DNA from: a virus
Direction: 5' to 3' (one strand)
IMG/VR virus record: IMGVR_UViG_3300031707_000006
Coordinates: 1 to 64,000 of that record
Length of the DNA: 64,000 nt
This document shows, piece after piece, positions 15,840 to 56,548 of this stretch. The notes under the pieces are model-generated. The model was given only the letters and a program-made list of their open reading frames with translations, did not search any database and had not been told where the DNA came from. A program made the position numbers and the translations under genes. Each line of letters begins with the position of its first letter. The stretch's first letter is position 1.

Positions 15840-16019
15840 ATGAATTTTCTAAAAAGAAGTGCTTACCCTGAATGGGTTTGTCTTATTATTGGAGTCACTG
15901 ATATTCTTAATGGATTAGTTTATGCACTATCTTTTGGGCATATATCCATTGGAATATGGATAACTAAACTGCAATTCTTTGGTTGGGCAAATAAATATTA
16001 TAGAGACCCAGGAGAATAA
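15840..16019 (+). CDS. Small two-segment membrane protein (59 aa)
   Basis: ATG 15840 follows AAAAGGAGAATATAAA. Two hydrophobic stretches (WVCLIIGVTDILNGLVYALS and ISIGIWITKLQFFGWA). Function unknown. Confidence 0.55.
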   Translation: MNFLKRSAYPEWVCLIIGVTDILNGLVYALSFGHISIGIWITKLQFFGWANKYYRDPGE

Positions 16020-16033
16020 AAAGGAAAAATAAA

Positions 16034-16090
16034 ATGAATCAAGCAGAAATATTGTTGACTAAACTAGAAGATGAGGAGACTTTAAAATGA
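16034..16090 (+). CDS. Tiny coupled ORF (18 aa)
   Basis: ATG 16034 has a good ribosome site (AAAGGAAAAATAAA) and its TGA overlaps the next ATG. The peptide (MNQAEILLTKLEDEETLK) is short. It may be a leader peptide that couples translation of the next gene. Low certainty. Confidence 0.35.
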   Translation: MNQAEILLTKLEDEETLK

Positions 16091-16530
16091 ATAAAATTTG
16101 TACAGGATTAAAAGATAAATTTGGAACATCAATCTATTTGGGAGATAAACTTAGATCAGATTATGAATATGATGTAATTGTATCTAAAAGTTATGATGGT
16201 ACTTACTTTGGTATACTTGTTTGTGAACCAGAACATTCCTGTAAAAATATTCCTTATGCACTAAATAGTGGACAAGGGTATGAAGTTATTAAAGATAAAG
16301 TTGGTGTATTAATTGAATATTTTCAAGATGTGATCGTACAGCTCACTGTATATGGTAATATTAAAAAAGGGAATAAAGAATATATGAAACGGGTTAGGGA
16401 AATTATAAAAAATAATTCAGATGAATATTCAGATAGTTTATCTGATGAACAATTAGAAGAATTACGAGAAAATTTATCTGAAAATATGTGCAAAGAGATG
16501 GTAGACTATTATGAAGGAGAGGTAATATAG
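16087..16530 (+). CDS. Unknown protein, weakly YopX-like start (147 aa)
   Basis: The start, TGLKDKFGTSIYLGDKLRSD, resembles the opening of YopX-type phage proteins (TGLkD.nG..iyeGD), but the rest does not clearly follow. The C-terminal half is acidic and helical (DEYSDSLSDEQLEELREN). Function unknown. Confidence 0.6.
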   Translation: MNKICTGLKDKFGTSIYLGDKLRSDYEYDVIVSKSYDGTYFGILVCEPEHSCKNIPYALNSGQGYEVIKDKVGVLIEYFQDVIVQLTVYGNIKKGNKEYMKRVREIIKNNSDEYSDSLSDEQLEELRENLSENMCKEMVDYYEGEVI

Positions 16531-22556: not shown

Positions 22557-22946
22557 TCACGCTATTCTCTCATTTGCGATATTAAAATACTTTTCATCCA
22601 TTATTTCCTTTACGAAAACTTTTAGATGATACTTCTTAGCAGTATCTATCATGTTTTTTGTGCCCTTACTTATACCATCCCAAATAGCAATTAGTGCATC
22701 TGCATTTTTAGCCATTTGCTCATTACGAATCGGGCCAGCAGCAGTACCATATCTTTCCCAATCTGCTAAAAAAGAACTAACTGGTATATCATTACTCATT
22801 GCGTAACCTAATCCTAAACTATCTACGCCCTTTGCACCACCATATACTACCACAGAAATTTGATCTTTCCAACCAGACTCTTCTATAGTAGTTTCTAGAA
22901 GTGCATAATCATCTATCGTCCTACTTCCAGCAATAATAACTCTCAT
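22557..22946 (-). CDS. SLOG (YspA/DUF2493-like) protein with a methyltransferase-like tail
   Basis: A Rossmann-like SLOG fold: VIIAGSRTI at the start, VVYGGAKGVDSLG (nucleotide loop), AGPIRNEQM and DALIAIWDGISKGTKNM. YspA/DUF2493 relatives are thought to bind or cleave nucleotide-type ligands. The last 13 residues, DEKYFNIANERIA, copy the end of the methyltransferase at 21766, so the SLOG gene seems fused to the tail of a second, lost methyltransferase. Confidence 0.78.
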   Translation of the reverse strand: MRVIIAGSRTIDDYALLETTIEESGWKDQISVVVYGGAKGVDSLGLGYAMSNDIPVSSFLADWERYGTAAGPIRNEQMAKNADALIAIWDGISKGTKNMIDTAKKYHLKVFVKEIMDEKYFNIANERIA

Positions 22947-24595
22947 ATATTCTTTTTCATTTCTTTTGTTAATTCTACAAAGGTTTCTGTTTGTCCTAAA
23001 TTAAGATATCGAGTAAGCCACATACTGTGAAATTGTGCGGATGATTTCTTAATCTGATTAGGAGTTATGTAGTCTATTCTGTGATCTGGAATTATTTTTT
23101 CACAACCATATTTTCTTATGGCATCAATTACCCATAAACTATAATCAGCTGGAATCAATAGGGCGAGGGGTAAATTATATTCTATACATTTTTCAAAGAA
23201 CTTTTTCTTTAAACTATTCCCGCTAAACGCCAACTTACCATTTCTTCTAACTAAAAATATATGATTATTTTTTAGTTCTAAACAATACACAAGATCATTA
23301 TATTGAACTATAGATTTTCTTTTTCCGAGAAATGCCCTTTTTTGTTTTGCCAAACAACCTTTATATCCTTTATTCGTTTTATCATAAATATATGAAGCAA
23401 AACTTCCCAACTTTACAGAAATTTCTACTAGATCGTTTGCTAATCTTCTAGATACTGTATAGAAATATCTTCCACCCATACTCATACAACCATCCCCAAA
23501 TAAATACCATTTCAACAAAATATCCAGAAATCTTGGTGACAACTCTTTTAGATTAGATGGAATAAATTTAGTATGAGAATTTCCAAACTGATGTAAATAT
23601 GTCCAAAGTTGAACACTGGAAATTTCAAACATACTAATTTCACCGGGATATTTGCGTTCTCTCACGTTAAAAGGAAGTTTACTAAGAAGTTCTCTAATAA
23701 TAGTTGCATTAGGTTCTTTTTGTTTTATAGAAACTTCATAAAGATGTTTTTGTTTCCCCTTATGATTTTCAAATTCTTCTTTCGTTGATCCTCTAGTACA
23801 TCCTTCTGAAACCCAAATACCAAAGAAAGCACACCAATCCTCCATTTTTACCTTAATTTCTTCAAATACTCTTTGTTGTTTATTATAAATTAGGGAGACA
23901 CTTGGAACAACAAAATATTCTTCTTCTTTCCCTTTCCATATAAATCCAGAACGGTTAAGACAGTGAGGAGATTTTACGTCACTTGCTAAGATTAATTCCT
24001 TAGATTTAGTATCCCTACCCTTTCCATATATTTTATTTGTAGTAATAACGTCTCCTTTATTATTAACCGCATAAATTCTATGATTGGGTGTTACTAATAA
24101 ATCCACTAATTTATTTTTGAAATAAATCATTTCTCCTTGATACGGGCTACTAATAACATTTTTTACATCATCCCAGGATATTTCCAGAGAATTTGAATCA
24201 AGACTAAGCACTCTATCAGCAACAGACACATCTTTAAGCAATTTCCATCCGTTATTAGTTAAGGTTTCCGTCTGAGAGTCGTAACAAAAGGGAGGATTAG
24301 TTATAATACAAGTCGCATTCCAATCTAAAATTAATTTATCAGGTATTGGATCAGATAGAAAGTTACAATTATAATTCATATCTGTAAGCCTAATATCAGA
24401 AGTAAATACACTATAACCATTTACTTTAAATACATTAGCCAGTCTGTGTTCTCCTGCGGCACATTCCCATATAATTTCAAACCGATGATTTATAAAAGGA
24501 AGAAGTAATTCTGTGGCATATCGAGGAGTAGAAAACATATCACGTCTTTGAACTGTCCCTGGAGTTTGTTTTTGTGGCTTCTTTGGTTTATTCAT
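22943..24595 (-). CDS. Intein-containing DNA methyltransferase-like protein
   Basis: The host protein after splicing is 193 aa: N-extein residues 1-103 (ECAAGEHRLANVF as SAM motif I, ending in NPPF) and a C-extein of 90 aa starting SLKKKFFEKCIEY. NPPF is the catalytic motif IV of N6-adenine methyltransferases, and the intein cuts it from what follows. Related phage proteins modify adenine; specificity unknown. It overlaps dUTPase by ATGA and sits beside another methyltransferase and the SLOG gene. Confidence 0.75.
   Translation of the reverse strand: MNKPKKPQKQTPGTVQRRDMFSTPRYATELLLPFINHRFEIIWECAAGEHRLANVFKVNGYSVFTSDIRLTDMNYNCNFLSDPIPDKLILDWNATCIITNPPFCYDSQTETLTNNGWKLLKDVSVADRVLSLDSNSLEISWDDVKNVISSPYQGEMIYFKNKLVDLLVTPNHRIYAVNNKGDVITTNKIYGKGRDTKSKELILASDVKSPHCLNRSGFIWKGKEEEYFVVPSVSLIYNKQQRVFEEIKVKMEDWCAFFGIWVSEGCTRGSTKEEFENHKGKQKHLYEVSIKQKEPNATIIRELLSKLPFNVRERKYPGEISMFEISSVQLWTYLHQFGNSHTKFIPSNLKELSPRFLDILLKWYLFGDGCMSMGGRYFYTVSRRLANDLVEISVKLGSFASYIYDKTNKGYKGCLAKQKRAFLGKRKSIVQYNDLVYCLELKNNHIFLVRRNGKLAFSGNSLKKKFFEKCIEYNLPLALLIPADYSLWVIDAIRKYGCEKIIPDHRIDYITPNQIKKSSAQFHSMWLTRYLNLGQTETFVELTKEMKKNI
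23216..24286 (-). mobile_element. Intein in the DNA methyltransferase (357 aa, LAGLIDADG)
   Basis: Residues 104-460 of the precursor. Block A begins CYDSQTETLTNNGW; block B has TPNHRIYA; two LAGLIDADG-like motifs FGIWVSEG and WYLFGDG mark a homing endonuclease; block F is YCLELKNNHIFLV; it ends FSGN before Ser+1. The penultimate residue is Gly, not the usual His. Insertion immediately after NPPF puts it in the active site. Confidence 0.88.
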
Positions 24596-27767: not shown

Positions 27768-28077
27768 CTGCATCTACTCCATCTGTACAATACTCTCCTG
27801 TATAAGATTCTGTCACAAATAAAGTGACAGATAATTCATCATCCGGATATTTTTGGAATAACCAACCACCCGTCTCCAGGTCAGCATATTCAGTATCATA
27901 TCTGGTCTCTGTATAAAGAAGGACTAGATGTTCTCTAAGAAAGTCTAGTAGATCCCAACCACCCTCAAACGACCTATAACCAGCCCCAAAATGGCCTTCG
28001 ATAAACTCTAATGCTCTACCTACATCTACTAAGTTTAATAATTTTCTAATTTTCAGTTCCCGTTCTGGTGTTAACAT
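27757..28077 (-). CDS. Unknown acidic protein (106 aa)
   Basis: Starts MLTPERELKIRKLLNLVDVG behind AAAGGAGAAAAT. Contains GGWDLLDFLREHLVLLY. No family recognised. Confidence 0.65.
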   Translation of the reverse strand: MLTPERELKIRKLLNLVDVGRALEFIEGHFGAGYRSFEGGWDLLDFLREHLVLLYTETRYDTEYADLETGGWLFQKYPDDELSVTLFVTESYTGEYCTDGVDADEM

Positions 28078-28088
28078 ATTTTCTCCTT

Positions 28089-28274
28089 TTAATCTATTCT
28101 AGATAAATCTAATTGTTTCAATATTTTATTTTTTAGTTCTATTTCTACTTCTTGCAGACTACTGCCTTTTACTAATCTCCAGACCTTTAAACATAATTTA
28201 CAATAGATAAATAATTGATTATCTGTAATGGTTTTATTTCTTCCAATACACGAATTACAATGGGGACACTTCAT
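28089..28274 (-). CDS. Zinc-ribbon protein (61 aa)
   Basis: CPHCNSC at the start and CKLC near residue 26 form a ribbon typical of transcription-associated fingers. Coupled by ATGA to the upstream membrane peptide. Confidence 0.6.
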   Translation of the reverse strand: MKCPHCNSCIGRNKTITDNQLFIYCKLCLKVWRLVKGSSLQEVEIELKNKILKQLDLSRID

Positions 28275-28372
28275 TTATCCTTAGGGCCTTTTATACGCAA
28301 GATAATAAATGTAAGTAAATATCCTGATATTCCAAACAATAAACTGATTAAAATTACTCTTATTATTTCCAT
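28271..28372 (-). CDS. Single-helix membrane peptide (33 aa)
   Basis: ATG 28372 (weak site GACGAAAAT). Hydrophobic helix VILISLLFGISGYLLTFII with a basic end. Lies just downstream of a tRNA gene. Confidence 0.5.
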   Translation of the reverse strand: MEIIRVILISLLFGISGYLLTFIILRIKGPKDK

Positions 28373-28385
28373 ATTTTCGTCTTAG

Positions 28386-28460
28386 TCGAGGATGTAGAAA
28401 TCGAATCTACCTATTGACAATGTATATAAGACATTCGCTTCACCAGCCAGCCCATCCTCG
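28386..28460 (-). tRNA. Probable tRNA-Ile(UAU)
   Basis: On the minus strand CGAGGAT and ATCCTCG form the acceptor stem. The anticodon arm is AATGT-CTTATAT-ACATT with anticodon UAU. The T arm is GTAGA-TTCGATT-TCTAC. The D arm is weak (GCT/AGC) and position 8 is G rather than U. No CCA is encoded. UAU reads AUA, a frequent codon in this AT-rich genome. Confidence 0.65.
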
Positions 28461-28461
28461 G

Positions 28462-28695
28462 TTAACATTTAAGCCACCCCATAAGATAAGCAGCATTGAG
28501 ATTAAAGACGATCTCATCCACTTCTATCGGTTTAAGAGATAAAGGTAAAGACATCATTATTATTTCCTTAAAGAAAATATTATAACAACTTGAACATAAA
28601 TTCACACGGTATGGTGCTTTAGGAAATTCTTTTTCATTCATTTCGTATTGCCTATCTAACCTTTCTAAATAATAATCAACTCTTTCCATGTTCAT
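28462..28695 (-). CDS. Unknown 77-aa protein
   Basis: ATG 28695 follows AGAGGTTTAAT. Helical, with one CxxC (LCSSCYNIFF). Ends one base from the tRNA. No family recognised. Confidence 0.6.
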   Translation of the reverse strand: MNMERVDYYLERLDRQYEMNEKEFPKAPYRVNLCSSCYNIFFKEIIMMSLPLSLKPIEVDEIVFNLNAAYLMGWLKC

Positions 28696-28714
28696 ATTAA
28701 ACCTCTATTAAGAT

Positions 28715-28749
28715 AAAAAGCAGAACCTTTTTGTGTGGGAAGATCCTGC
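28715..28749 (-). terminator. Rho-independent terminator (leftward)
   Basis: On the minus strand GCAGGATC pairs with GGTTCTGC (two G-U pairs, which only work on this strand), followed by TTTTTATC. A second hairpin, CGGGTTTCCCG, lies just upstream (28748-28760). Confidence 0.7.
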
Positions 28750-28766
28750 GGGAAACCCGAACTAGA

Positions 28767-29237
28767 TTAAAGTTTATAAGTTCTATTTACTGTAGCGGCA
28801 GAAACAACTGCTGCAACTGCTAAGACAATAAATTCTTTGGTAGAATCTAATTGGGCTAAAGTATCCGCGTTTGCGATTGCTACCTGATAAGTTTTATACA
28901 CATGGGGTGAGACTGTTGTAATTGACCAATATTTTTTAGTTTCCTTATCTCTTGATGCAATTACATAATCTTCTACATGTACTGTTTCTTTCATATTCTC
29001 TTCTCCTTTTGGAAAAATACCATACATTAAACCTTCAAATAATTTATTTGTTTCGTCCTCAAATTCATCTTTCCAGAACATATTTTTCTCCTTTTGTTTC
29101 CATTCTCCTAAACCTTTACACGAAAAACCAAGTTGATTCTCTAATCCGTGATCCATTTGAAACTCAAAAATAGTTGACATTTCAAATATTGTATCTTCTA
29201 TTGTATCTTCAAATTCTACAGTTACCTTTTTTATCAT
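28767..29237 (-). CDS. Unknown protein (156 aa)
   Basis: I start at ATG 29237 (AAAGGAGTAATT before it); an upstream in-frame ATG would lie inside the tRNA-Arg gene. Acidic first half with beta strands (KVTVEFEDTIEDTIFEMS), then a hydrophobic alanine-rich C-terminus (FIVLAVAAVVSAATV) that could be a membrane helix. Function unknown. Confidence 0.65.
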   Translation of the reverse strand: MIKKVTVEFEDTIEDTIFEMSTIFEFQMDHGLENQLGFSCKGLGEWKQKEKNMFWKDEFEDETNKLFEGLMYGIFPKGEENMKETVHVEDYVIASRDKETKKYWSITTVSPHVYKTYQVAIANADTLAQLDSTKEFIVLAVAAVVSAATVNRTYKL

Positions 29238-29251
29238 AATTACTCCTTTAG

Positions 29252-29325
29252 CACCCTCGGTGAGATTCGGACTCACAACCCCATTTTTAGAAGAAATGTG
29301 CTCTGATCCGTTGAGCTACGAGGGT
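29252..29325 (-). tRNA. tRNA-Arg(UCU)
   Basis: A full cloverleaf on the minus strand: acceptor ACCCTCG/CGAGGGT, U8-A9, D arm GCTC...GAGC, anticodon arm CATTT-CTTCTAA-AAATG (anticodon UCU), variable GGGTT, T arm GTGAG-TCCGAAT-CTCAC. No encoded CCA. UCU reads AGA and AGG, the main arginine codons here. Confidence 0.92.
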
Positions 29326-29459
29326 AGTTTATCCTGGACTGTCTGTGTGAGTTTGATCAGACTCTGGTATATGACCTGACAGCAAGGCTATGCATCTTTG
29401 GATCCAAGCCAATTGGAGATCAATCCGTGCATACTTCCCTCTCACACCAGGATAAATTA
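29325..29459 (-). ncRNA. Candidate structured non-coding RNA
   Basis: The ends form a 13-bp stem (29325-29337 with 29447-29459, one G-U on the plus strand). Inside: GTGTGAG (29345-29351) with CTCACAC (29441-29447), CTGTC (29339-29343) with GACAG (29378-29382) as an alternative or pseudoknot, TATGCA (29389-29394) with TGCATA (29428-29433), then nested GGAT/ATCC and CCAA/TTGG around a GCCAA loop. There is no credible ORF. A consensus promoter upstream (29565-29592) would transcribe it leftward together with tRNA-Arg. No known RNA family recognised. Confidence 0.5.
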
Positions 29460-29460
29460 G

Positions 29461-29550
29461 GCAGAACTCCTTAGTTGCAGTCTAAACTGCCCGATCTTCT
29501 TTTTGCATCTGGTGGGAAGGCTAGACCACAGTTTTTAGAGCAAAGATGGA
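29461..29550 (-). other. Further structured leader between the promoter and the ncRNA candidate
   Basis: Two more foldable units lie here: GGCAG (29460-29464) with CTGCC around an AACT-CCTT-AGTT hairpin, and CATCT (29506-29510) with AGATG (29544-29548) around GGTGG...CCAC. Together with 29325-29459 this makes about 230 bases without a gene. Confidence 0.4.
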
Positions 29551-29564
29551 CTTGACTTATTTAT

Positions 29565-29592
29565 ATTATACACCAATTTTCTACTTTGTCAA
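29565..29592 (-). promoter_or_regulatory. Consensus sigma70 promoter for the tRNA/ncRNA locus
   Basis: On the minus strand TTGACA (29587-29592), 16-bp spacer, TATAAT (29565-29570): both boxes match consensus perfectly. Transcription would start near 29558 and run leftward into the structured RNA and tRNA-Arg. Confidence 0.75.
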
Positions 29593-29599
29593 GTACCAA

Positions 29600-29677
29600 T
29601 ATAGCGGGAATGTGATTCGAACATCCGATCTCAAGGTTCAAAGCCTCACGTTTTTATCCAGTTAAACTATATGCCTA
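29600..29677 (-). tRNA. Degenerate tRNA-Gln(UUG)-like sequence
   Basis: On the minus strand a D arm (GTTT...AAAC with GG in the loop) and an anticodon arm (TGAGG-CTTTGAA-CCTTG, anticodon UUG) are readable. The T arm is distorted (GGATGTTCGAATCACATTCC) and the acceptor halves pair only at ATAG/CTAT. It is probably a decayed tRNA lying just upstream of the promoter at 29565. Confidence 0.35.
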
Positions 29678-29679
29678 TT

Positions 29680-29883
29680 TTAATAAAACACAATATTAAT
29701 TACATATCCCAATTGCTGTAGTGCCTTTACAATAAAACTATTCATAATCACTGTTGAATCACCAGACTTCGTTATCCAAACGGTAACAACCCTGGCAGCA
29801 AAGTCTACAGCAGCGGAGACTCCAAAGAGAAGATTTATCTCCATAAGCAGATCGGATATTTTACTTTTATCACCAATAGCCAT
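29680..29883 (-). CDS. Unknown hydrophobic 67-aa protein
   Basis: Begins MAIGDKSKISDLLMEINLLF; amphipathic and hydrophobic with no polar catalytic residues. It overlaps the holin-like gene upstream by 14 bases, so it may act with it in lysis or membrane work. Unproven. Confidence 0.55.
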   Translation of the reverse strand: MAIGDKSKISDLLMEINLLFGVSAAVDFAARVVTVWITKSGDSTVIMNSFIVKALQQLGYVINIVFY

Positions 29884-30205
29884 TGCGTTCTGCTAACTCA
29901 TCTTTATATTCTTTCATTGGTTTAACAGTCAGTTCGTATGAACCAAATGTTATTAACGATTGTAGAACGATTACCGTTGCACCAATACCCCACTGTTTCC
30001 AGTCCGTAGGGATTAAGTATCCTTCTATTTTAAGTAGGGCTAAGGGCAATGCTGTAAATATATTTAAAATTGCTACCATTAATACATAGAGTTTTGGAGA
30101 GAAATCATATTGCCCTCCTAATTTCAATCTAAGTAATGGTTTCACAACGAATTGCAGGATGAACATAGATAATGCACCTGCTGATACAATAACGATCTCA
30201 TTCAT
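29870..30205 (-). CDS. Holin-like three-helix membrane protein (111 aa)
   Basis: Three hydrophobic helices: about residues 2-22, 38-60 and 72-92, with a charged C-terminal tail (KEYKDELAERNGYW). Size and topology fit class I holins. No lysin gene is adjacent, so the lysis role is inference. ATG 30205 follows AAGGAGCAAAATT. Confidence 0.55.
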   Translation of the reverse strand: MNEIVIVSAGALSMFILQFVVKPLLRLKLGGQYDFSPKLYVLMVAILNIFTALPLALLKIEGYLIPTDWKQWGIGATVIVLQSLITFGSYELTVKPMKEYKDELAERNGYW

Positions 30206-30216
30206 AATTTTGCTCC

Positions 30217-30516
30217 TTAATCATCTGTTTTCCATTCTTCTTTTATGGAGAATAAATCTCCTTCACATCTTACTAAATAAGTTTGTACATCGGTTAGTGT
30301 CTGTAAATAAGCTGTTTCAGGTACTTCATTAATTGATTCACTGTAAACCATTTTCCTATTTGTAGATAAATCAGGCATGGTTTTTTCTTGCACAATTTGA
30401 GTCATTGCTTTCCAACCACCATCATCTAATTTAGCAAGACTGCTTATAGTTACCTGTTGAAATCTTTTTAATTCTTTAAAGTCCATTGTGAATCCTATAG
30501 TGGATTTCTTGTCCAT
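30217..30516 (-). CDS. Unknown 99-aa protein
   Basis: Begins MDKKSTIGFTMDFKELKRFQ; mixed alpha/beta, acidic end (KEEWKTDD). Overlaps the exonuclease 3' end by 22 bases. No family recognised. Confidence 0.6.
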   Translation of the reverse strand: MDKKSTIGFTMDFKELKRFQQVTISSLAKLDDGGWKAMTQIVQEKTMPDLSTNRKMVYSESINEVPETAYLQTLTDVQTYLVRCEGDLFSIKEEWKTDD

Positions 30517-37636: not shown

Positions 37637-40489
37637 TTATTTGCTCCAATAATCATTTACTGTAATCTCTACAGCAGCAGGAATTACTTTTAGATATATT
37701 CTTTCTGCTGTTAACATAGTTTCTTCTACAAACTTTATTGCAGCATTTACGATTTCATCTTTTACCTCTATTACAACTTCATCGTGTACTTGCATAAGAA
37801 TATGAAAATCTTTATATTCAAAAGGATTATTATAAAATAGATTACACATTGCATCTTTAATAATATCCGCCGCACTCCCTTGTATGAGCATATTGTAACC
37901 CTCTCTCATACTTGCCGCATTTTCTTTTTCAGCTTCTTCCATATTTTTGTAGATTCTTCGATGATCAAAATATCTTTTTCTACCTAATAAAGTTTTAGTA
38001 TGCCCTTTACTTAATACTGCCTCACCAAAAGATTTTCTAAATGCAACCATTGTTGGATATCCCGTATTAATTGCAATAAGAACATCTTCTGCGACATCTT
38101 GAGAAATATGTAATTTCTTAGAAAGTCCCCAAGCACTGCTTCCAAATAAAGAAGCAAAGTTGATATTTTTGGCATCATCTCTTTGTTCCTTTATAACTTC
38201 ATCAAGGGTACAATGATTAACCAAAGCAGCAGTAGAGGTATGCATATCCTTACCTTCCTGATATGCTTTAATAATCAATTCATCTTCTGTTATTTCTCCC
38301 ACCAATCTATACTCTTCTTGATTATAATCTGCACGTAAAAGTTTATATCCAGGTCTCGCTATAAATGTTGCACGATATTCTGCCAATTTAGGTATGTTTT
38401 GTAAATTTATTGAGTCACTATTTCCAGTGATAGCCACAATATGTCCTTGTTTCATAACCCAAGTTCCACATTCTGTTGTTGGACACCAAACATCCATTTC
38501 TTTTTCTGGAGCCCAATTACAATTTCGATTCGCATATAATTCATCAGAACAAGTAAGATGATAATAAATAAAGGGTTTCCCTGATTTTAATTTTCTTTTA
38601 CTAAAACTATATGGCTTCGCTAAGGCTAAAGAAAGTAATTCAAAGTACTCACAGGATTGTTTCTTTTGGGTTTCCAAACTTCCAAATCCAATATATTTCT
38701 TTAATTCTCTCCGATAAGATCCATCTCCCTCAATCATAGATAAGTACATTATTTCCCAGCATTCCTCTGATAAACTCATGATAATTTTACTTGGGGGATG
38801 TGTAAGAAACGTTTGATAGATTGGCTCAAATATTTCAGAACTAATATGAAAAGCACTCACATAATGTGAATCGTATTCATATTGTTTATATCTATTTAGC
38901 GTATAAGATACATTATTTTCATCTAACCAACCTTTTAATAATTGAATACTCCTCCCTTTTACAAGGGAAATTCCTAATCCATGATTTTTCTTTCCGGTTA
39001 AAAATCCATCGGATAAGTACCAGCCAAGTAACAATGCTTGTGTTTTATCTAAAAGAGACGTTTTACAATCCTGCAATTTAACGTTTGGCATTAAAACTGT
39101 GTCATATTTTCTTGGAATACTATTTGCATTACTAAATCCAATTATCTTTGAATCCTTAGTAATCCATTTATGATTGGCTGTACATAAAATTCCTTTTTGA
39201 TATTTAGAATCATGACCTTTGTTAACTACTAATCTTCCAACAAGGTCTTTTCCAATCGTTATATCATCTATAGTTGTAATTTTATATTGATATTTTTGTA
39301 AATCAAAACCAATAACTTGATCCCCAATATTTACCTCATTATATTTTTTCCAACCATTCAACGTGAGTATTTCTGAATCCAAAGGTACACAACTGTATCT
39401 CCCAGAAGTTGCCCCAAGTTGATTAAATTTAGAATGTATTCTACCTGTAGTTGGGTGTATATTTTCAAACCAACTTACACCATAAGTAGATACTCTTTTA
39501 GCGCGATTTCTATATTCTAATATTAAATCTATAAGAGGTTCTCCAGCAAATAATACTAATGTATCTTCATTCGTATCTTCTACAGGAATATTAAATAGAT
39601 TTAATGCATTCTTCATATGTACATGAGAACCAGGATTTAATCTTTCATAAATCCAAGAAGTAAGTGCATAAGTTGAATCTACTTGTTCGAGATATTTCTT
39701 ATCTCTGACCAATTTTACTTTAATTCCTAATGTTTCAGATAACTCTATAGAACTATTGAACTTAGTTGTATCTATATTATTAAGTATATAATCTTTTATT
39801 TTTTTATGGAATAAATCTCTTTCAACTTCTGCTAATTTAGCAAGATTCTCCCATGCAACTTTATCTAATAAGATGCCCTCTAATTCCATCATTACGGTAA
39901 CTGGAGTTAATCTATTCTCAAGATTAAATACATCTAGTTGTTTTTGTTCTATTAACTTTACTAAAAGAATATCTTTTAATCTCTTAAGATACATTACATC
40001 CTCGGTAGAGTATACTAACATATCTTCAGTGATTTGTCCAAATGGATCTTCATAGAATTTTTTTCTTACTGTTTTATCTAATTGTATTCCTAGATATTTT
40101 AAGCAAATATCGTCTAAAGATGGATATCTGGATAAGGCTAGACCATTTGTAACCATTACTTCAGCAGATTGTAAATCTATTAAATCTGTAAAGAGTAGAT
40201 TATATTTAGATTTAATGAATTTTAGGTCAAACTTTAGATTAAATCCAACAAGGATTGAATCACTTTCTTGTAATAAAGAACAAATATAAATAATATTCTT
40301 ATCTCCTAAGAGTTGAGCATCAAATAAGAATATTTTATTATCTATCTCTACTTGAATTAATCTAATAAAATTCAGATAAGGATCTAATCCACTTGTTTCT
40401 ATATCAAATCCTATTACAGTATCTTTTCTATTAATAAGAGACTTTTGAAAAGATGATAATTCACTTAAAGAAGCGATATAAGAATACAT
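37637..40489 (-). CDS. polA: Family A DNA polymerase with intein
   Basis: Replicates the phage genome. After removal of a 324-aa intein the mature protein is 626 aa: 3'-5' exonuclease at the N-terminus (GFDIETSGLDP, D29/E31; VGFNLKFDLKF), no 5' nuclease, then the polymerase: TSGRYS-SDSINLQNIP, motif A LRADYNQEEYRL (D721), O-helix DDAKNINFASLFG, motif C QVHDEVV (H903/D904). The O-helix keeps F for sugar discrimination but has F in place of the usual Tyr near its end. The gene is the first of the leftward replication operon together with 40491. Confidence 0.93.
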   Translation of the reverse strand: MYSYIASLSELSSFQKSLINRKDTVIGFDIETSGLDPYLNFIRLIQVEIDNKIFLFDAQLLGDKNIIYICSLLQESDSILVGFNLKFDLKFIKSKYNLLFTDLIDLQSAEVMVTNGLALSRYPSLDDICLKYLGIQLDKTVRKKFYEDPFGQITEDMLVYSTEDVMYLKRLKDILLVKLIEQKQLDVFNLENRLTPVTVMMELEGILLDKVAWENLAKLAEVERDLFHKKIKDYILNNIDTTKFNSSIELSETLGIKVKLVRDKKYLEQVDSTYALTSWIYERLNPGSHVHMKNALNLFNIPVEDTNEDTLVLFAGEPLIDLILEYRNRAKRVSTYGVSWFENIHPTTGRIHSKFNQLGATSGRYSCVPLDSEILTLNGWKKYNEVNIGDQVIGFDLQKYQYKITTIDDITIGKDLVGRLVVNKGHDSKYQKGILCTANHKWITKDSKIIGFSNANSIPRKYDTVLMPNVKLQDCKTSLLDKTQALLLGWYLSDGFLTGKKNHGLGISLVKGRSIQLLKGWLDENNVSYTLNRYKQYEYDSHYVSAFHISSEIFEPIYQTFLTHPPSKIIMSLSEECWEIMYLSMIEGDGSYRRELKKYIGFGSLETQKKQSCEYFELLSLALAKPYSFSKRKLKSGKPFIYYHLTCSDELYANRNCNWAPEKEMDVWCPTTECGTWVMKQGHIVAITGNSDSINLQNIPKLAEYRATFIARPGYKLLRADYNQEEYRLVGEITEDELIIKAYQEGKDMHTSTAALVNHCTLDEVIKEQRDDAKNINFASLFGSSAWGLSKKLHISQDVAEDVLIAINTGYPTMVAFRKSFGEAVLSKGHTKTLLGRKRYFDHRRIYKNMEEAEKENAASMREGYNMLIQGSAADIIKDAMCNLFYNNPFEYKDFHILMQVHDEVVIEVKDEIVNAAIKFVEETMLTAERIYLKVIPAAVEITVNDYWSK
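38420..39391 (-). mobile_element. Intein in DNA polymerase (324 aa, LAGLIDADG)
   Basis: Residues 367-690. Block A CVPLDSEILTLNGWKKY; block B CTANHKWIT; endonuclease motifs LLLGWYLSDGF and MYLSMIEGDGS; block F DVWCPTTECGTWVM; end AITGN before Ser+1. The penultimate residue is Gly. It splits the conserved SGRYS/SDSxNLQNIP nucleotide-binding motif, a hot spot for inteins in phage PolA. Confidence 0.92.
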
Positions 40490-40745: not shown

Positions 40746-40910
40746 TTTATTTTTCCTTTCAAATTATTTCTTCTTGCTCAGTTCTATCTTTTGAATACTG
40801 GAGAAGCACTGAATAAGTTACATTTATTACTTATAAACTTTAATGGTTTATTTCCTCTTGCTCCCCGTCTTGGCTTCGCAAGTATAACTCTAGTTTATTC
40901 AATTATGAGT
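40746..40910 (-). promoter_or_regulatory. Structured 5' leader of the polymerase operon
   Basis: About 160 bases between the promoter at 40911 and the first gene. On the minus strand it can fold into CTTGC...GCAAG, ATAAAC...GTTTAT and ATAAGT...ACTTAT hairpins in succession. No ORF. It may control translation or stability of the replication message. No known riboswitch recognised. Confidence 0.4.
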
Positions 40911-40939
40911 AGTATAGCATAATTTTGAGGGGCTGTCAA
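40911..40939 (-). promoter_or_regulatory. Sigma70-type promoter of the polymerase operon
   Basis: TTGACA (40934-40939), 17-bp spacer, TATACT (40911-40916) on the minus strand. The -35 lies within the 3' end of the small gene at 40936. Confidence 0.8.
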
Positions 40940-41049
40940 GAGGCAATTTTCTCTAAACACCATTCACGAACACCCTCATAGGTAACTTTATCATCCAATT
41001 CTATCTTTGCCTCTACTTCAAAATTAATTGTGAATCTCCGTTTAGCCAT
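40936..41049 (-). CDS. Small protein (37 aa) from the symmetric promoter region
   Basis: ATG 41049 with a strong AAGGAGCAAAAT site. Sequence MAKRRFTINFEVEAKIELDD, then a helix. Short beta-alpha protein, unknown; its ribosome site is part of a 17-bp inverted repeat (41050-41066). Confidence 0.6.
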   Translation of the reverse strand: MAKRRFTINFEVEAKIELDDKVTYEGVREWCLEKIAS

Positions 41050-41059
41050 ATTTTGCTCC

Positions 41060-41088
41060 TTGACAATCTTAGACTTTTAGGGTAAAAT
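41060..41088 (+). promoter_or_regulatory. Rightward sigma70-type promoter
   Basis: TTGACA (41060-41065), 17-bp spacer, TAAAAT (41083-41088). It drives the glycan and morphogenesis block starting at 41181 and leaves a leader of about 85 bases. Confidence 0.7.
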
Positions 41089-41144
41089 ACACACTAATTC
41101 ACCTATGAGAGGCAAATTTTTTTGTGTATCTCATTCTGAATTAC

Positions 41145-41172
41145 ATGATACCCTAAATTTGTAGTTTGTCAA
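41145..41172 (-). promoter_or_regulatory. Leftward promoter facing the rightward one
   Basis: TTGACA (41167-41172), 16-bp spacer, TATCAT (41145-41150) on the minus strand, transcribing the 37-aa gene at 40936 and perhaps the replication operon. It lies inside the leader of the rightward promoter, so the two transcripts overlap as antisense. Confidence 0.6.
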
Positions 41173-41180
41173 GGAGCAAA

Positions 41181-41420
41181 ATGCCAATCCGTCATGATTT
41201 CAATTTCTGGGAGTGTAAATATTGCCACAAAGATTACAAGTTAGAACTCATGGCTTTAGGTTGCGAGCAAAGCCACGAGATTATATACCTCCCTATCCGT
41301 AAAGATGATCTTCAAAGGTTAATCCAATTCATCTACATGAAGGACGAGCGATTACTTACACCTACGTTATTAGAGACCCTTATGCCATATTCCCAGAACA
41401 TGCGGGGAGGGAATGCATGA
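41181..41420 (+). CDS. Zinc-binding unknown protein (79 aa)
   Basis: ATG 41181 with AAGGAGCAAA. ECKYCHK and ALGCEQSHE (CxxC...CxxxH) form a metal site found in several phage proteins of similar size. First gene of the right block. Confidence 0.7.
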   Translation: MPIRHDFNFWECKYCHKDYKLELMALGCEQSHEIIYLPIRKDDLQRLIQFIYMKDERLLTPTLLETLMPYSQNMRGGNA

Positions 41421-41641
41421 TCTGTATCTTCTGTGATAAAGAAGTATTAGATGATATATTTACTCTGGGAATTGATATCCCCTATATTAACTTAAAAGTG
41501 CATAAATATTGCTGGAAAATGCATAAAAATACTAATTATCTACAACAAAATGCAGAAGTGTGCTATAATAGGATCGTAAAGATTATTGAGGAAAGAGATA
41601 ATGGATCAACCAGAAAAGAAAAAAAGAAAACCACGAACTAA
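41417..41641 (+). CDS. Cysteine-containing basic protein (74 aa)
   Basis: ATG 41417 overlaps the previous TGA. CIFCDKEV and a later HKYCWKMH could bind zinc. The C-terminus is basic and acidic mixed. Unknown. It overlaps the next gene by 41 bases. Confidence 0.6.
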   Translation: MICIFCDKEVLDDIFTLGIDIPYINLKVHKYCWKMHKNTNYLQQNAEVCYNRIVKIIEERDNGSTRKEKKKTTN

Positions 41642-42332: not shown

Positions 42333-43016
42333 ATGTATAAAGGATTTAATATTACAGTTGGAATTCCTGTTTATAACAATTATCGGGGATTAAGGAAATG
42401 TATTATTTCTGCCGAAATGGGAGAGGTAAAGCCTGATCTTTATTTTATATTTGATAATGGTGGTTTATATAATAATATTTTATTTAAAGATGAAATGGAT
42501 GTTAGTAAGATCCGGTTATATAGACCTGGGTATAATCAAGGTGTCGCAAAGGCATGGAATCTTATTATTAGAAATACAACAGATATAAGAATTATCTGTA
42601 ATGATGATATTGAATTTCATACGGATACTGTAAAAGTGTTTGTAGATAATTTTGATGAAAACAAGATAACATTCCCGGATGAAAAGAGAGATAATCTTTT
42701 TTCTTGTTTTAGTATACCAACAAAATTATTTAATGCAATTGGTGAGTTTGATGAATCGCTGAGTCCTAACTATGGATATTTTGAGGACAACGATTATTAT
42801 CGTAGAGTAATTCTTTATGGACAAGAATTTGGTTTCCAATCTATTCCTACTGGATATGAACACATTGGTAGTACTACATTGAAAAATTATAGTCCAGGTG
42901 AATTATCTTTACACCATAAAAAGTTTGAATTAGCAAAAGCCAATTACATAAAAAAATGGGGAAATCTCCCACATCAAGAAACTTTTACAATTCCTTATAA
43001 CGGTGTGAAACAATGA
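42333..43016 (+). CDS. Family 2 glycosyltransferase
   Basis: GT-A fold: FNITVGIPVYNNYRGLRKC at the start (first strand), FDNGG, YNQGVAKAWNLII and the nucleotide/metal-binding ICNDDIEF (DDI in place of DxD), then FDESLSPNYGYFEDNDYYRR with the acceptor-side acidic motif. 227 aa, catalytic domain only. Probably transfers a sugar from an NDP donor; acceptor unknown. First transferase of the island. Confidence 0.82.
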   Translation: MYKGFNITVGIPVYNNYRGLRKCIISAEMGEVKPDLYFIFDNGGLYNNILFKDEMDVSKIRLYRPGYNQGVAKAWNLIIRNTTDIRIICNDDIEFHTDTVKVFVDNFDENKITFPDEKRDNLFSCFSIPTKLFNAIGEFDESLSPNYGYFEDNDYYRRVILYGQEFGFQSIPTGYEHIGSTTLKNYSPGELSLHHKKFELAKANYIKKWGNLPHQETFTIPYNGVKQ

Positions 43017-43780
43017 TAACATATCTGCAACTGAATAACAGAAGTGTAGCAGGCCGCTTGGGAAACAATTTATTTGAGATCGCAAGTACGATAGGAATCG
43101 CAGATTCTTTAAATATTCCTTTTTACTTTCCTACTTGGCCGTACAGCAGGTATTTTAAACATGAGTTACCTCAAAAAAGTTATGATGAACTTTCTTCTTA
43201 TAAACTAAAAATATTTACTGAGAAACAATTCAATTATGATTTTATTTCTTTAGATGTTCGCCATTCTTGGAGTCTCTGTGGGTATCTACAATCCTGGAAA
43301 TATTTTGTAAATTCATTTGATAAAATTAAATATTATTTTGAACCTAATTTTGAAACAAATGATAATTCAAAAGACCTAGTTTCAGTGCATGTGAGGAGAG
43401 GCGATTATCTCGATCGTAAAGGATTCCATACTTGTTTAACTGAAACAAATTATTATCAGAAAGCAATGGCCCTATTTCCTGATGATAAATTCCTAATCTT
43501 CTCTGATGATATTCACTGGTGTATGCAAAGTGATTTATTTGATAATGATCGATGTATCTATAAAATGAATGAGACATCTGATACTGCAACTCCCGCACCC
43601 TTTGATTTATTACACATGGTTTATATGGCAAAATGTAAACATCATATTATCGCCAATTCTAGTTATTCCTGGTGGGGTTCTTTTCTTGGAAATTCAAATA
43701 GTATAACTATTGCTCCTAGACAATGGTGGGTTAATAATAATTCCAGCGATATTTACTTACCACATTGGATTCAAATATGA
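43013..43780 (+). CDS. GT11 (alpha-1,2-fucosyltransferase-like) enzyme
   Basis: GRLGNNLFEIAS corresponds to 'G.LGNQmFqya', VSVHVRRGDYL to the HxRRGDY GDP-binding motif, and IIANSSYSWWGSFLG to 'NSsFSWWga'. These are the three family motifs. Expected to add fucose or a similar deoxysugar from GDP. Overlaps its neighbours on both sides by ATGA. Confidence 0.85.
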   Translation: MITYLQLNNRSVAGRLGNNLFEIASTIGIADSLNIPFYFPTWPYSRYFKHELPQKSYDELSSYKLKIFTEKQFNYDFISLDVRHSWSLCGYLQSWKYFVNSFDKIKYYFEPNFETNDNSKDLVSVHVRRGDYLDRKGFHTCLTETNYYQKAMALFPDDKFLIFSDDIHWCMQSDLFDNDRCIYKMNETSDTATPAPFDLLHMVYMAKCKHHIIANSSYSWWGSFLGNSNSITIAPRQWWVNNNSSDIYLPHWIQI

Positions 43781-53794: not shown

Positions 53795-56548
53795 ATGGCA
53801 ATACGAGAGGTAATCACTCAAGGGGATATTCTACTATACGAAATTTTGAGGAATCCCTGTCTTTTTGGAGAGTTTGTTGAAAATATAGATAAACTCCCTT
53901 ACGAAGAGGAATTTAGATTCCATGATTATCAGAATGAAATGATTATGGACTTCAGTACCTATGTAAGTTTTTGTACAGGAAGAAGTGTTGGAAAAACAGT
54001 TTCGATAAGTCATTTAATGTCTTGGGCATTAACTTTTAATATCTTTCCCTCTGAGTATCTTGTTTATACTGTACCGGGAAGAGCACATCTAGAGCCTGTA
54101 TTTAATGCTTTGGTTAGGTTATTCAGAACCAACTCTTTTCTTAAACATTTTATTGCCTCAAACTCAGGTGTGAATAACTCAGACTTTACAATTCATTTAT
54201 TAAATCAGTCTGATTTATTTTGTAGAATTGCAGGACAAAGCGGTAGTGGTTTACCTGTAGTTGGTTTACACTCTCCATATGAATTCGTGGATGAATGTGT
54301 TGTGGGATCACAACTCGTAAGATGCAAAAACGGGAAAAACCCAATCTCTCATATAAAATCTGGAGATATCGTCATTTCATGGGATGGGGAAAATACTGTC
54401 GAAGATCGAGTTATTTCTACTCAAAAGGTCAAAAAAAATCAAAACGTATTAGAGATAGGATTTGATGGAGGATATATTAGAATTGGAGAACACCATAGAA
54501 TATATACAGATGCCGGATATATAGAGGCACATTTACTAAACATTAAAGATAATATTTATCATTCTACAAATTCGATTAGACAACGTTGGACTAAAAATGA
54601 AATAGATATTGTTAAAAAACGGATTAAAAATTCTGTACCTGTATATGAAATTGCTAAAGAATTGAATCGGACAGAATTAGGAGTTTTTAGAAAAATTAGT
54701 CATCTGGGATTATCAGTAAGAGAGATCTTTGATTCCATTCCTTTAACAGAGGAAGAATTTCAAGTGATTGCGGGATCATTTTTAGGGGATGGATCAGCAC
54801 AAATAGAACCATATAGAGCAAGATATACTACAAATCACAGTTTAAAACAAAAAGAATATGTCGATTGGCTTAGAATAAAGTTAAATAGACTTATAAGGGT
54901 TGAACCAAGGATCTCAAAAAATGGTGGATGGGGGACTTATAATTATTCTTTAAGTACCATAGGCCACCCAACAATCCTAACTCTTGCAAACGAATTGTAT
55001 ATTAATGGAAAAAAGACAATTACTCGATATTATTTAGATAGATTAACTCCACTTGGTTTTGCTATTTGGTTTATGGACGATGGATCAGAAAGTGGAATGT
55101 TATCTACACATTCATTCTCTGAATCTGAAAACGAAATTATAAAACAGTATCTATGGGAAAAATGGGGTATTGAATCGAAAATTTATAAAGACAAGAGAAA
55201 AAGTTTATATTTTATAGTAATTAGAATTAAGTCATTATCCATTCTTAGAAAAATTATTGAACCATATATTCCAGAATGTATGGGATATAAAATAGGAAAG
55301 GGAAAGTATAATAATACACTTCCAGAAATATCTATTATAAAGAATGGAGAAAATAAACAATCCCTAGAGAAAAAAGAAATTACTTATATTAAAAAGATTA
55401 AATCAACGGCAAGATACTTATATAATATTGAGGTTGAAAATAATCATAATTACTTTATTAATGGAATCCTAACAAAAAATTCGGGCTACTATCCGTATCC
55501 AACCTTCATTGAATTTAGACCTACCTTTAATAAATGGATGCCAGGATGCAAATTAATTGTATCTGGTGTCCCTACAGGTTTAAGAGAAAATAATGTTTTA
55601 TATCACTGTGATCAAGAAGATTCATCTTTCTCAAAACATAGAATCAGTGCAGATGATAATCCAAGATTAACCAAAGAAGATAGAGAACAAGCAATCGTTG
55701 ATTATGGTGGAGAAGATTCGGAAGATTTTGAGCATTTGTGGCGGGGCAGACATGGCCGTCCTGTATTTGCACTCTTTGATCGCAGTCTAATGGAAATATC
55801 TAACTATCCTGTATCTAAATTAGAGATAGATGGAATTAAATTAGCGGATAATATTGCTCTTTATGTTGAGAGATTGTCCCTACTTCCAGGATTACCACAT
55901 AAAGATTATTCCTGTTTTTTTGGAATAGATCTTGGTTATACGCAACCATCCGCTATTTATGTTCTTTATATAGATAATTATGGAAGAATTAAGTTTCATG
56001 CCAAAATAAAATTAAGTAAAGTTTCTTATCCTATACAAGAAAGATTAATAGATTATTTAGATTCTAAATATAATCCATTATTCTTAGGAATGGACGAGGG
56101 TTCATCTGGTAAATCAGTAAAACAACATCTTATGGAAGATAAAGAATATTGGCATAAAGATTATGAAAAAAGATTAATACCGATTGATTTCTCATCTTGG
56201 GTTATATTAGGATATGATTCAGAAAAGAAAGAAATTAAAAGTAAAACTAAACCATATGCGACTACCATTCTACAAGAATGGGCAAATAGTCACAAAATAA
56301 TATTTACATCAACTGACCTTGAAACAGTTACAGAACTGGAGAGAATGACGTTTACAAAGAATCCATCTGGAGAAATCGTTTATCGTACCTTAACAGAACG
56401 TGGGGGTAAACGAGGCGAAGATCACTTCACCGCTGCTTTACTTTGTGCAACAATGGCACATTATATTACTTATGATTCTCTTACTTCAGTTAAACATGTA
56501 CAACTTTTTAAAGGTGGTTGGATAGGAAATATAGGGAGACAACTATGA
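53795..56548 (+). CDS. terL: Terminase large subunit with intein
   Basis: ATP-driven DNA packaging motor and nuclease. CTGRSVGKTVS (about 60-70) is Walker A; EFVDE (163-167) is Walker B, where the intein is inserted. After splicing the host protein is 522 aa. The ATPase continues with VSGVPTG (motif III, coupling), and the RNase H-like nuclease follows: FFGIDLGYT (first aspartate), LGMDEGSS, and GEDHFTAALLCA (last aspartate). 53795 begins with ATG one base after the previous stop. Confidence 0.93.
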   Translation: MAIREVITQGDILLYEILRNPCLFGEFVENIDKLPYEEEFRFHDYQNEMIMDFSTYVSFCTGRSVGKTVSISHLMSWALTFNIFPSEYLVYTVPGRAHLEPVFNALVRLFRTNSFLKHFIASNSGVNNSDFTIHLLNQSDLFCRIAGQSGSGLPVVGLHSPYEFVDECVVGSQLVRCKNGKNPISHIKSGDIVISWDGENTVEDRVISTQKVKKNQNVLEIGFDGGYIRIGEHHRIYTDAGYIEAHLLNIKDNIYHSTNSIRQRWTKNEIDIVKKRIKNSVPVYEIAKELNRTELGVFRKISHLGLSVREIFDSIPLTEEEFQVIAGSFLGDGSAQIEPYRARYTTNHSLKQKEYVDWLRIKLNRLIRVEPRISKNGGWGTYNYSLSTIGHPTILTLANELYINGKKTITRYYLDRLTPLGFAIWFMDDGSESGMLSTHSFSESENEIIKQYLWEKWGIESKIYKDKRKSLYFIVIRIKSLSILRKIIEPYIPECMGYKIGKGKYNNTLPEISIIKNGENKQSLEKKEITYIKKIKSTARYLYNIEVENNHNYFINGILTKNSGYYPYPTFIEFRPTFNKWMPGCKLIVSGVPTGLRENNVLYHCDQEDSSFSKHRISADDNPRLTKEDREQAIVDYGGEDSEDFEHLWRGRHGRPVFALFDRSLMEISNYPVSKLEIDGIKLADNIALYVERLSLLPGLPHKDYSCFFGIDLGYTQPSAIYVLYIDNYGRIKFHAKIKLSKVSYPIQERLIDYLDSKYNPLFLGMDEGSSGKSVKQHLMEDKEYWHKDYEKRLIPIDFSSWVILGYDSEKKEIKSKTKPYATTILQEWANSHKIIFTSTDLETVTELERMTFTKNPSGEIVYRTLTERGGKRGEDHFTAALLCATMAHYITYDSLTSVKHVQLFKGGWIGNIGRQL
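54296..55480 (+). mobile_element. Intein in terminase (395 aa, LAGLIDADG)
   Basis: Residues 168-562. Block A CVVGSQLVRCKNGKNPI; block B RIGEHHRIYT; endonuclease motifs AGSFLGDGS and IWFMDDGS; block F YNIEVENNHNYFI; end ILTKN before Ser+1. The penultimate residue is Lys. It interrupts Walker B directly after the catalytic glutamate. Confidence 0.92.

Follow-up and report, generated by a model that had tools for sequence, protein, structure and literature searches.

A putative non-coding leader RNA upstream of a phage tRNA-Arg gene, resembling T5 RNAX in layout

What is transcribed between a promoter and the first tRNA gene of a phage transcription unit when the intervening DNA holds no convincing gene? 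The locus considered here lies in a 64-kb window, by which we mean the whole stretch of DNA that was analysed, taken from an 84,498-base linear IMG/VR virus record. Among the genes of this tailed phage are those for DnaB, a family A DNA polymerase and ribonucleotide reductase, and the gene in the terminase position contains an intein. The features of the locus, in the order of predicted transcription, are as follows.

29565–29592, minus strand: sigma70-type promoter, TTGACA-16-TATAAT, an exact match to the consensus at 12 of 12 positions
29326–29560, minus strand: putative non-coding leader RNA from promoter to tRNA-Arg, about 235 nt, distinguished by its GC content, with no Rfam family and no well-placed open reading frame (ORF)
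29466–29541, minus strand: domain I, a promoter-proximal hairpin region, as modelled by folding with the domain II stem enforced
29328–29456, minus strand: domain II, 129 nt, with a perfect 10-bp closing stem, ending 2 nt before tRNA-Arg
29447–29456, minus strand: 5' arm of the closing stem, TTTATCCTGG
29328–29337, minus strand: 3' arm of the closing stem, CCAGGATAAA
29251–29325, minus strand: tRNA-Arg(tct), identified by ARAGORN and Rfam (60.4 bits), the first tRNA of its transcription unit

An earlier reading made from the letters alone (hereafter the sequence-only reading) had proposed a consensus promoter at this position, and this is borne out: it is the sole exact TTGACA-N15–18-TATAAT in the window, where 0.24 would be expected per shuffled window. 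A single exact match is not overwhelming on its own. Related phages repeatedly have perfect promoters of this type, often upstream of tRNA groups and with a non-coding leader between, and this recurrence beside tRNAs adds weight. From its position, transcription is predicted to start at ∼29557–29560 on the minus strand. Just upstream of the promoter (29602–29676) lies a degenerate tRNA-Gln(ttg)-like sequence, which scores 27.9 bits in Rfam (cut-off 29) and has mismatches in both the acceptor stem (four) and the T stem (two).

Inspection of ORFs and ribosome-binding sites reveals no convincing gene between the promoter and tRNA-Arg. The statement that the first ∼230 bases hold no ORF was nearly right: there is no well-placed ribosome site, but a 38-codon frame starting with GTG is present inside the leader (29329–29445). 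The only Shine–Dalgarno-like sequence, AAGGAG, lies ∼19 nt upstream of this frame, which is too far. The GC content of the leader is 0.44 versus 0.32 for the window and places it in the top 2.5% of tiles of equal size. The first base assigned to the structured RNA in the sequence-only reading (29325) proves to be the first base of tRNA-Arg.

We then searched for known RNA families and for sequence relatives. No family in Rfam 15, GOLLD and ROOL included, reaches its gathering threshold in the leader, in agreement with the earlier failure to recognise one, and tRNA-Arg is the sole match at that threshold in the whole window. Relaxing the Rfam search of the leader to E = 10 gave nothing meaningful (best match 17.4 bits vs 70 required), and the matches in its vicinity are of tRNA type only. 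The following identities of the leader were considered and rejected: (i) ToxI, DdR1 and PreQ1, with Rfam scores far below threshold; (ii) RNase P RNA, tmRNA, a group I intron and a T-box, which are without Rfam support; and (iii) a tRNA-like RNA or a series of decayed tRNAs filling the leader, with zero matches to the tRNA model in 29326–29562 at E values up to 10. Sequence relatives of the leader were found neither by blastn among GenBank phages nor by blastn and nhmmer in all collected loci and eight related records, and exact leader patterns gave four matches in viral and bacterial contigs, all by chance. The only near-identical contig, 3300031999_003922, matches the region with 100% protein identity and stops ∼0.4 kb before the RNA.

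The predicted fold of the leader was compared with those of shuffled sequences. The claim that the transcript folds extensively does not hold, because its fold is no better than chance (minimum free energy (MFE) z = 0.14 over 241 nt, with 108 of 200 shuffles folding equally well). The 137-nt part containing domain II gives z = −1.22, and the promoter-proximal 101 nt give z = 0.03, i.e. the fold of domain I equals that of shuffles. Global folding energy was thus rejected as evidence of structure. By contrast, the reported 13-nt inverted repeat (29325–29337/29447–29459) is real, being 92% complementary with a perfect 10-bp core. The pair probability of this closing stem is ∼1 in the isolated 137-nt context; in the full leader the stem occupies ∼0.5 of the ensemble and competes with an alternative fold that is 0.9 kcal/mol better. 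Enforcing the 10-bp stem in the full leader accordingly gives a structure 0.9 kcal/mol above the MFE, from which domains I and II result. An inverted repeat of 10 bp is not rare per se: it occurs in 8 of 200 shuffles and in 26 of 270 window tiles of 237 nt (∼10%). For a stem arm that ends 2 nt from tRNA-Arg, the position has P = 0.0033 in shuffles. The outstanding feature of the leader is the position of its stem beside tRNA-Arg, not its fold energy.

Is such a stem found before the tRNAs of other phages? Relatives were gathered by DnaB alignment (80 loci), and those that are ∼35–41% identical include tRNA-rich phages. Of 38 first-in-group tRNAs, 10 are preceded by a perfectly paired stem of at least 8 bp that ends no more than 8 nt from the tRNA, compared with 0.95 expected from shuffles and with a frequency of 3.4% at random positions; a stem of at least 8 bp is absent before the other 28. 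Pre-tRNA stems of differing sequence are found at this place in loci L059 (GGGAAGGGCA/TGCCCTTCCC), L061 (GGAGAGTGG/CCACTCTCC), L079 (13 bp), L061 before tRNA-Ala (10 bp) and L089. The leaders of L059 (15383–15593) and L061 (10164–10340) run from promoter to tRNA over 211 and 177 nt, respectively, contain no ORF longer than 22 codons and have tandem stem-loops, the last of which stands 5–6 nt before tRNA-Pro; their fold z-scores are −4.0 (L059) and −2.2 (L061). Short versions are plain hairpins (i.e. L061 before tRNA-Ala, L079 and L089). The sequence of these stems differs from phage to phage, their position is constant, and the enclosed stretch may measure only a few bases or some tens of them. 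They back the closing stem in the window by analogy, not by homology. In both the L059 and L061 leaders, the loop of the first hairpin carries ACCTCCTTT, identical to the anti-Shine–Dalgarno end of 16S rRNA; this motif is absent from the leader in the window.

We also analysed the spacers between tRNAs of the relatives, using 54 distinct non-coding spacers of 45–340 nt and, as criterion, a perfect end-to-end stem of at least 7 bp. Seventeen of the 54 are closed in this manner (0.37 expected), compared with none of 15 spacers that contain an ORF. The pattern had been partly noticed before it was tested, and loci collected later were used as a held-out set: among these, 10 of 28 spacers are closed end to end versus 0.23 expected. 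Units with stems of at least 6 bp are 53–308 nt long, and most stem-closed units have no tRNA match. Some could be unrecognised odd tRNAs; the unit at L073 16839 is such a tRNA and carries an insert.

The tRNA arrays of the relatives also contain a recurrent sequence, termed here the CAGCAA element, with copies in L059 (15672–16489), L060 (1354–1956), L061 (10417–11153), L139 (3440–4047) and L135 (9985–10044). It consists of a 7-bp stem with compensatory changes followed by a conserved A-rich AYACAGCAAC and often by a second hairpin; it often stands directly 3' of a tRNA, and we recognised no known family in it. A covariance model of the element (R1) picks up new copies in loci outside its building set, while the covariation count within its seed is partly by construction because the seed stems were picked for complementarity. 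Within the leader, 29460–29494 (GGGCAG-TTTAGACTGCAAC...CTGCC) appears similar by eye, but R1 does not find it and this identity was rejected; with filters off, the best R1 match overlapping the leader has E = 5, and the rest of the record contains none near it. Other peculiarities of these arrays are tRNA genes with inserts of ∼40–55 nt in or near the anticodon arm (L059 ∼16013–16131, L060 1559–1671 and L073 16839–16968), with the CAGCAA motif inside the insert in L059 and L060; a tmRNA gene (119 bits; L079 20103–20419); and, according to ARAGORN, a tRNA-Pyl(cta) (L061 13491–13562) and a tRNA-SeC(tca) (L136 16920–16993).

Known phages offer several precedents for RNAs at such places. In phage T5 (GenBank AY543070), the promoter P16-17, RNAX and tRNA-Arg are contiguous. 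RNAX (40848–41566, 719 nt) is described in the annotation as a stable RNA with unknown functions and contains a 12-bp perfect stem whose end lies 5 nt before tRNA-Arg. Like RNAX, the leader in the window stands between its own promoter and tRNA-Arg and has a long perfect stem near the tRNA; unlike RNAX, it is ∼235 rather than 719 nt long and its transcription is only predicted. The two sequences share only chance matches of 8–12 nt. The other T5 RNAs among the tRNAs (i.e. RNAI, RNAIII, RNAIV, RNA1, RNA2, RNA2H and RNA3) are compact non-tRNA RNAs of ∼70–170 nt between tRNA genes. Among them, RNA2H has a 10-bp end-to-end stem (0 of 100 shuffles), RNAIII and RNAIV are closed by 6 bp, and the annotation describes RNA1, RNA2 and RNA3 as tRNA-like, which the leader is not. 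In phage T4, RNAC and RNAD (species 1 and 2, or bands C and D; 139 and 119 nt) are non-tRNA RNAs of the tRNA cluster with unknown function (PMC9697503; PMC4933390). They directly follow tRNA-Arg, whereas the leader precedes it; RNAC has a tRNA-like T arm, and neither T4 RNA is predicted to fold with a long closing stem. Sequence comparison of the leader with the tRNA-cluster RNAs of T5 and T4 revealed no similarity. The sRNA2 of Pseudomonas phage PAK_P3, ∼100 nt in the intergenic space between two phage tRNAs, is strongly expressed late in infection (PMC4933390); it was seen by RNA-seq, whereas the leader is known from sequence, and we liken the two by position. GOLLD and ROOL, which the sequence-only reading named for comparison, are phage RNAs often found near tRNA islands (PMC12286853), but they are several times longer than the leader and form conserved Rfam families that do not match it. 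The layout of T5 RNAX is closer. Calling the RNA one of unknown kind was therefore too strong in view of RNAX and RNAC/RNAD, although it is true that no Rfam family fits.

The leader shares three traits with stable RNAs of phage tRNA clusters: it directly adjoins a phage tRNA and shares its direction of transcription, it is non-coding, and it has a long perfect stem beside the tRNA (10 bp), as in T5 RNAX and RNA2H but not in T4. By analogy, the best reading is that it represents a new, short member of these RNAs, nearest in layout to T5 RNAX, and the proposal of a promoter-driven non-coding RNA beside tRNA-Arg stands as far as a promoter can predict transcription. Specifically, we suggest with a probability of roughly 0.55 that it is the RNAX-like 5' leader RNA of the tRNA-Arg transcription unit, with the closing stem as a boundary element. 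Host RNA polymerase would start at ∼29558 and produce the non-coding RNA of ∼235 nt, tRNA-Arg and the downstream genes. The tRNA-proximal domain of 129 nt is predicted to be held shut by the 10-bp stem, with its last base 2 nt from the tRNA. RNase P generally cleaves tRNA precursors at the 5' end of the tRNA; a cut at the 5' end of tRNA-Arg would free the leader with its 3' end beside the stem. The stem would then most likely serve as a boundary that prevents pairing between leader and tRNA and guards the transcript against exonucleases. The stem rather than the interior is favoured as the selected part because the relatives keep a stem there in unrelated sequences and with varied enclosed lengths; what lies inside seems unconstrained. 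Several points weigh against this model: the fold energy and the competing structure described above, the lack of sequence relatives in the collections searched, the 28 first tRNAs without such a stem, and the possibility that a stem only 2 nt away from the cleavage site impedes RNase P instead of assisting it.

Four other explanations have to be weighed against the RNAX-like leader. The leader, or domain II alone, may accumulate as a stable RNA and act in trans on RNAs or proteins of host or phage, with the tRNA neighbourhood supplying only its processing. At such places T5 RNAX, RNAI, RNAIII, RNAIV and RNA2H, T4 RNAC and RNAD (PMC9697503) and PAK_P3 sRNA2 (PMC4933390) are stable or strongly expressed, and the 129 nt of domain II are more than a boundary hairpin requires. 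However, the leader has no conserved sequence, Rfam family or sequence relative, its fold equals shuffles, and matching positions in relatives are often occupied by short plain hairpins, all of which makes a trans-acting RNA improbable here. An unselected leader, i.e. decayed sequence (old tRNAs or spacer) with one chance stem, appears equally improbable. The folding energy and the frequency of 10-bp repeats in 237-nt tiles (both given above) and the degenerate tRNA-Gln-like sequence just upstream are in its favour, whereas the GC content, the stem position (P = 0.003), the recurrence of the architecture in relatives far above expectation and the failure to detect a tRNA remnant in the leader at any score above the reporting limit argue against it.

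A cis-regulatory leader (an attenuator or a ligand-binding element) controlling the tRNA-Arg operon would suit the leader position and the alternative folds within 1 kcal/mol, but we consider it very unlikely: there is no terminator-like site within 28000–30500 and no riboswitch family (the PreQ1 match has 11.8 bits vs 39 required). Least probable of all is a short coding gene in the open 38-codon GTG frame, given the distance of AAGGAG, the course of the frame, which crosses domain II and enters the 3' arm of its closing stem, and the absence of any relative.

A broader interpretation is that stem-closed non-tRNA RNAs (∼50–310 nt) form a large and so far unrecognised class that includes the leader, and that these RNAs are interleaved with phage tRNA genes, released by tRNA-processing enzymes and trans-acting in infection; we regard this as speculative and rather doubtful. 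If true, T5 RNAX and T4 RNAC/RNAD would be its first-seen examples, and the CAGCAA element an already definable sequence family within it. That T4 and T5 carry such RNAs next to their tRNA genes has long been known, for decades in fact, and to our knowledge no function has been assigned to them. Stem-closed RNAs at the same places across an uncultivated phage group, far above chance, provide comparative material for asking whether the stem, through processing or protection, or the enclosed RNA is under selection. The RNA in the window alone is a modest case; its recurrence in relatives is the useful part.

Several other features of this phage were also observed. The gene in the terminase position (53795–56548) contains intein splicing domains together with a LAGLIDADG endonuclease, intein splicing domains also occur at 22943–24595, and the DNA polymerase gene has a large insert (37637–40489) that is perhaps a further intein. 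A contig binned into a Brevinema metagenome-assembled genome (DYKD01000020.1) carries a relative (54%) of the major capsid protein, which gives a weak hint at the host, as the binning may be wrong. Two putative glycosyltransferase genes (42333–43780) share only 72–80% identity with those of the near-identical contig (L002), which is elsewhere 100% identical at the protein level, a pattern that looks as if this cassette had been swapped.
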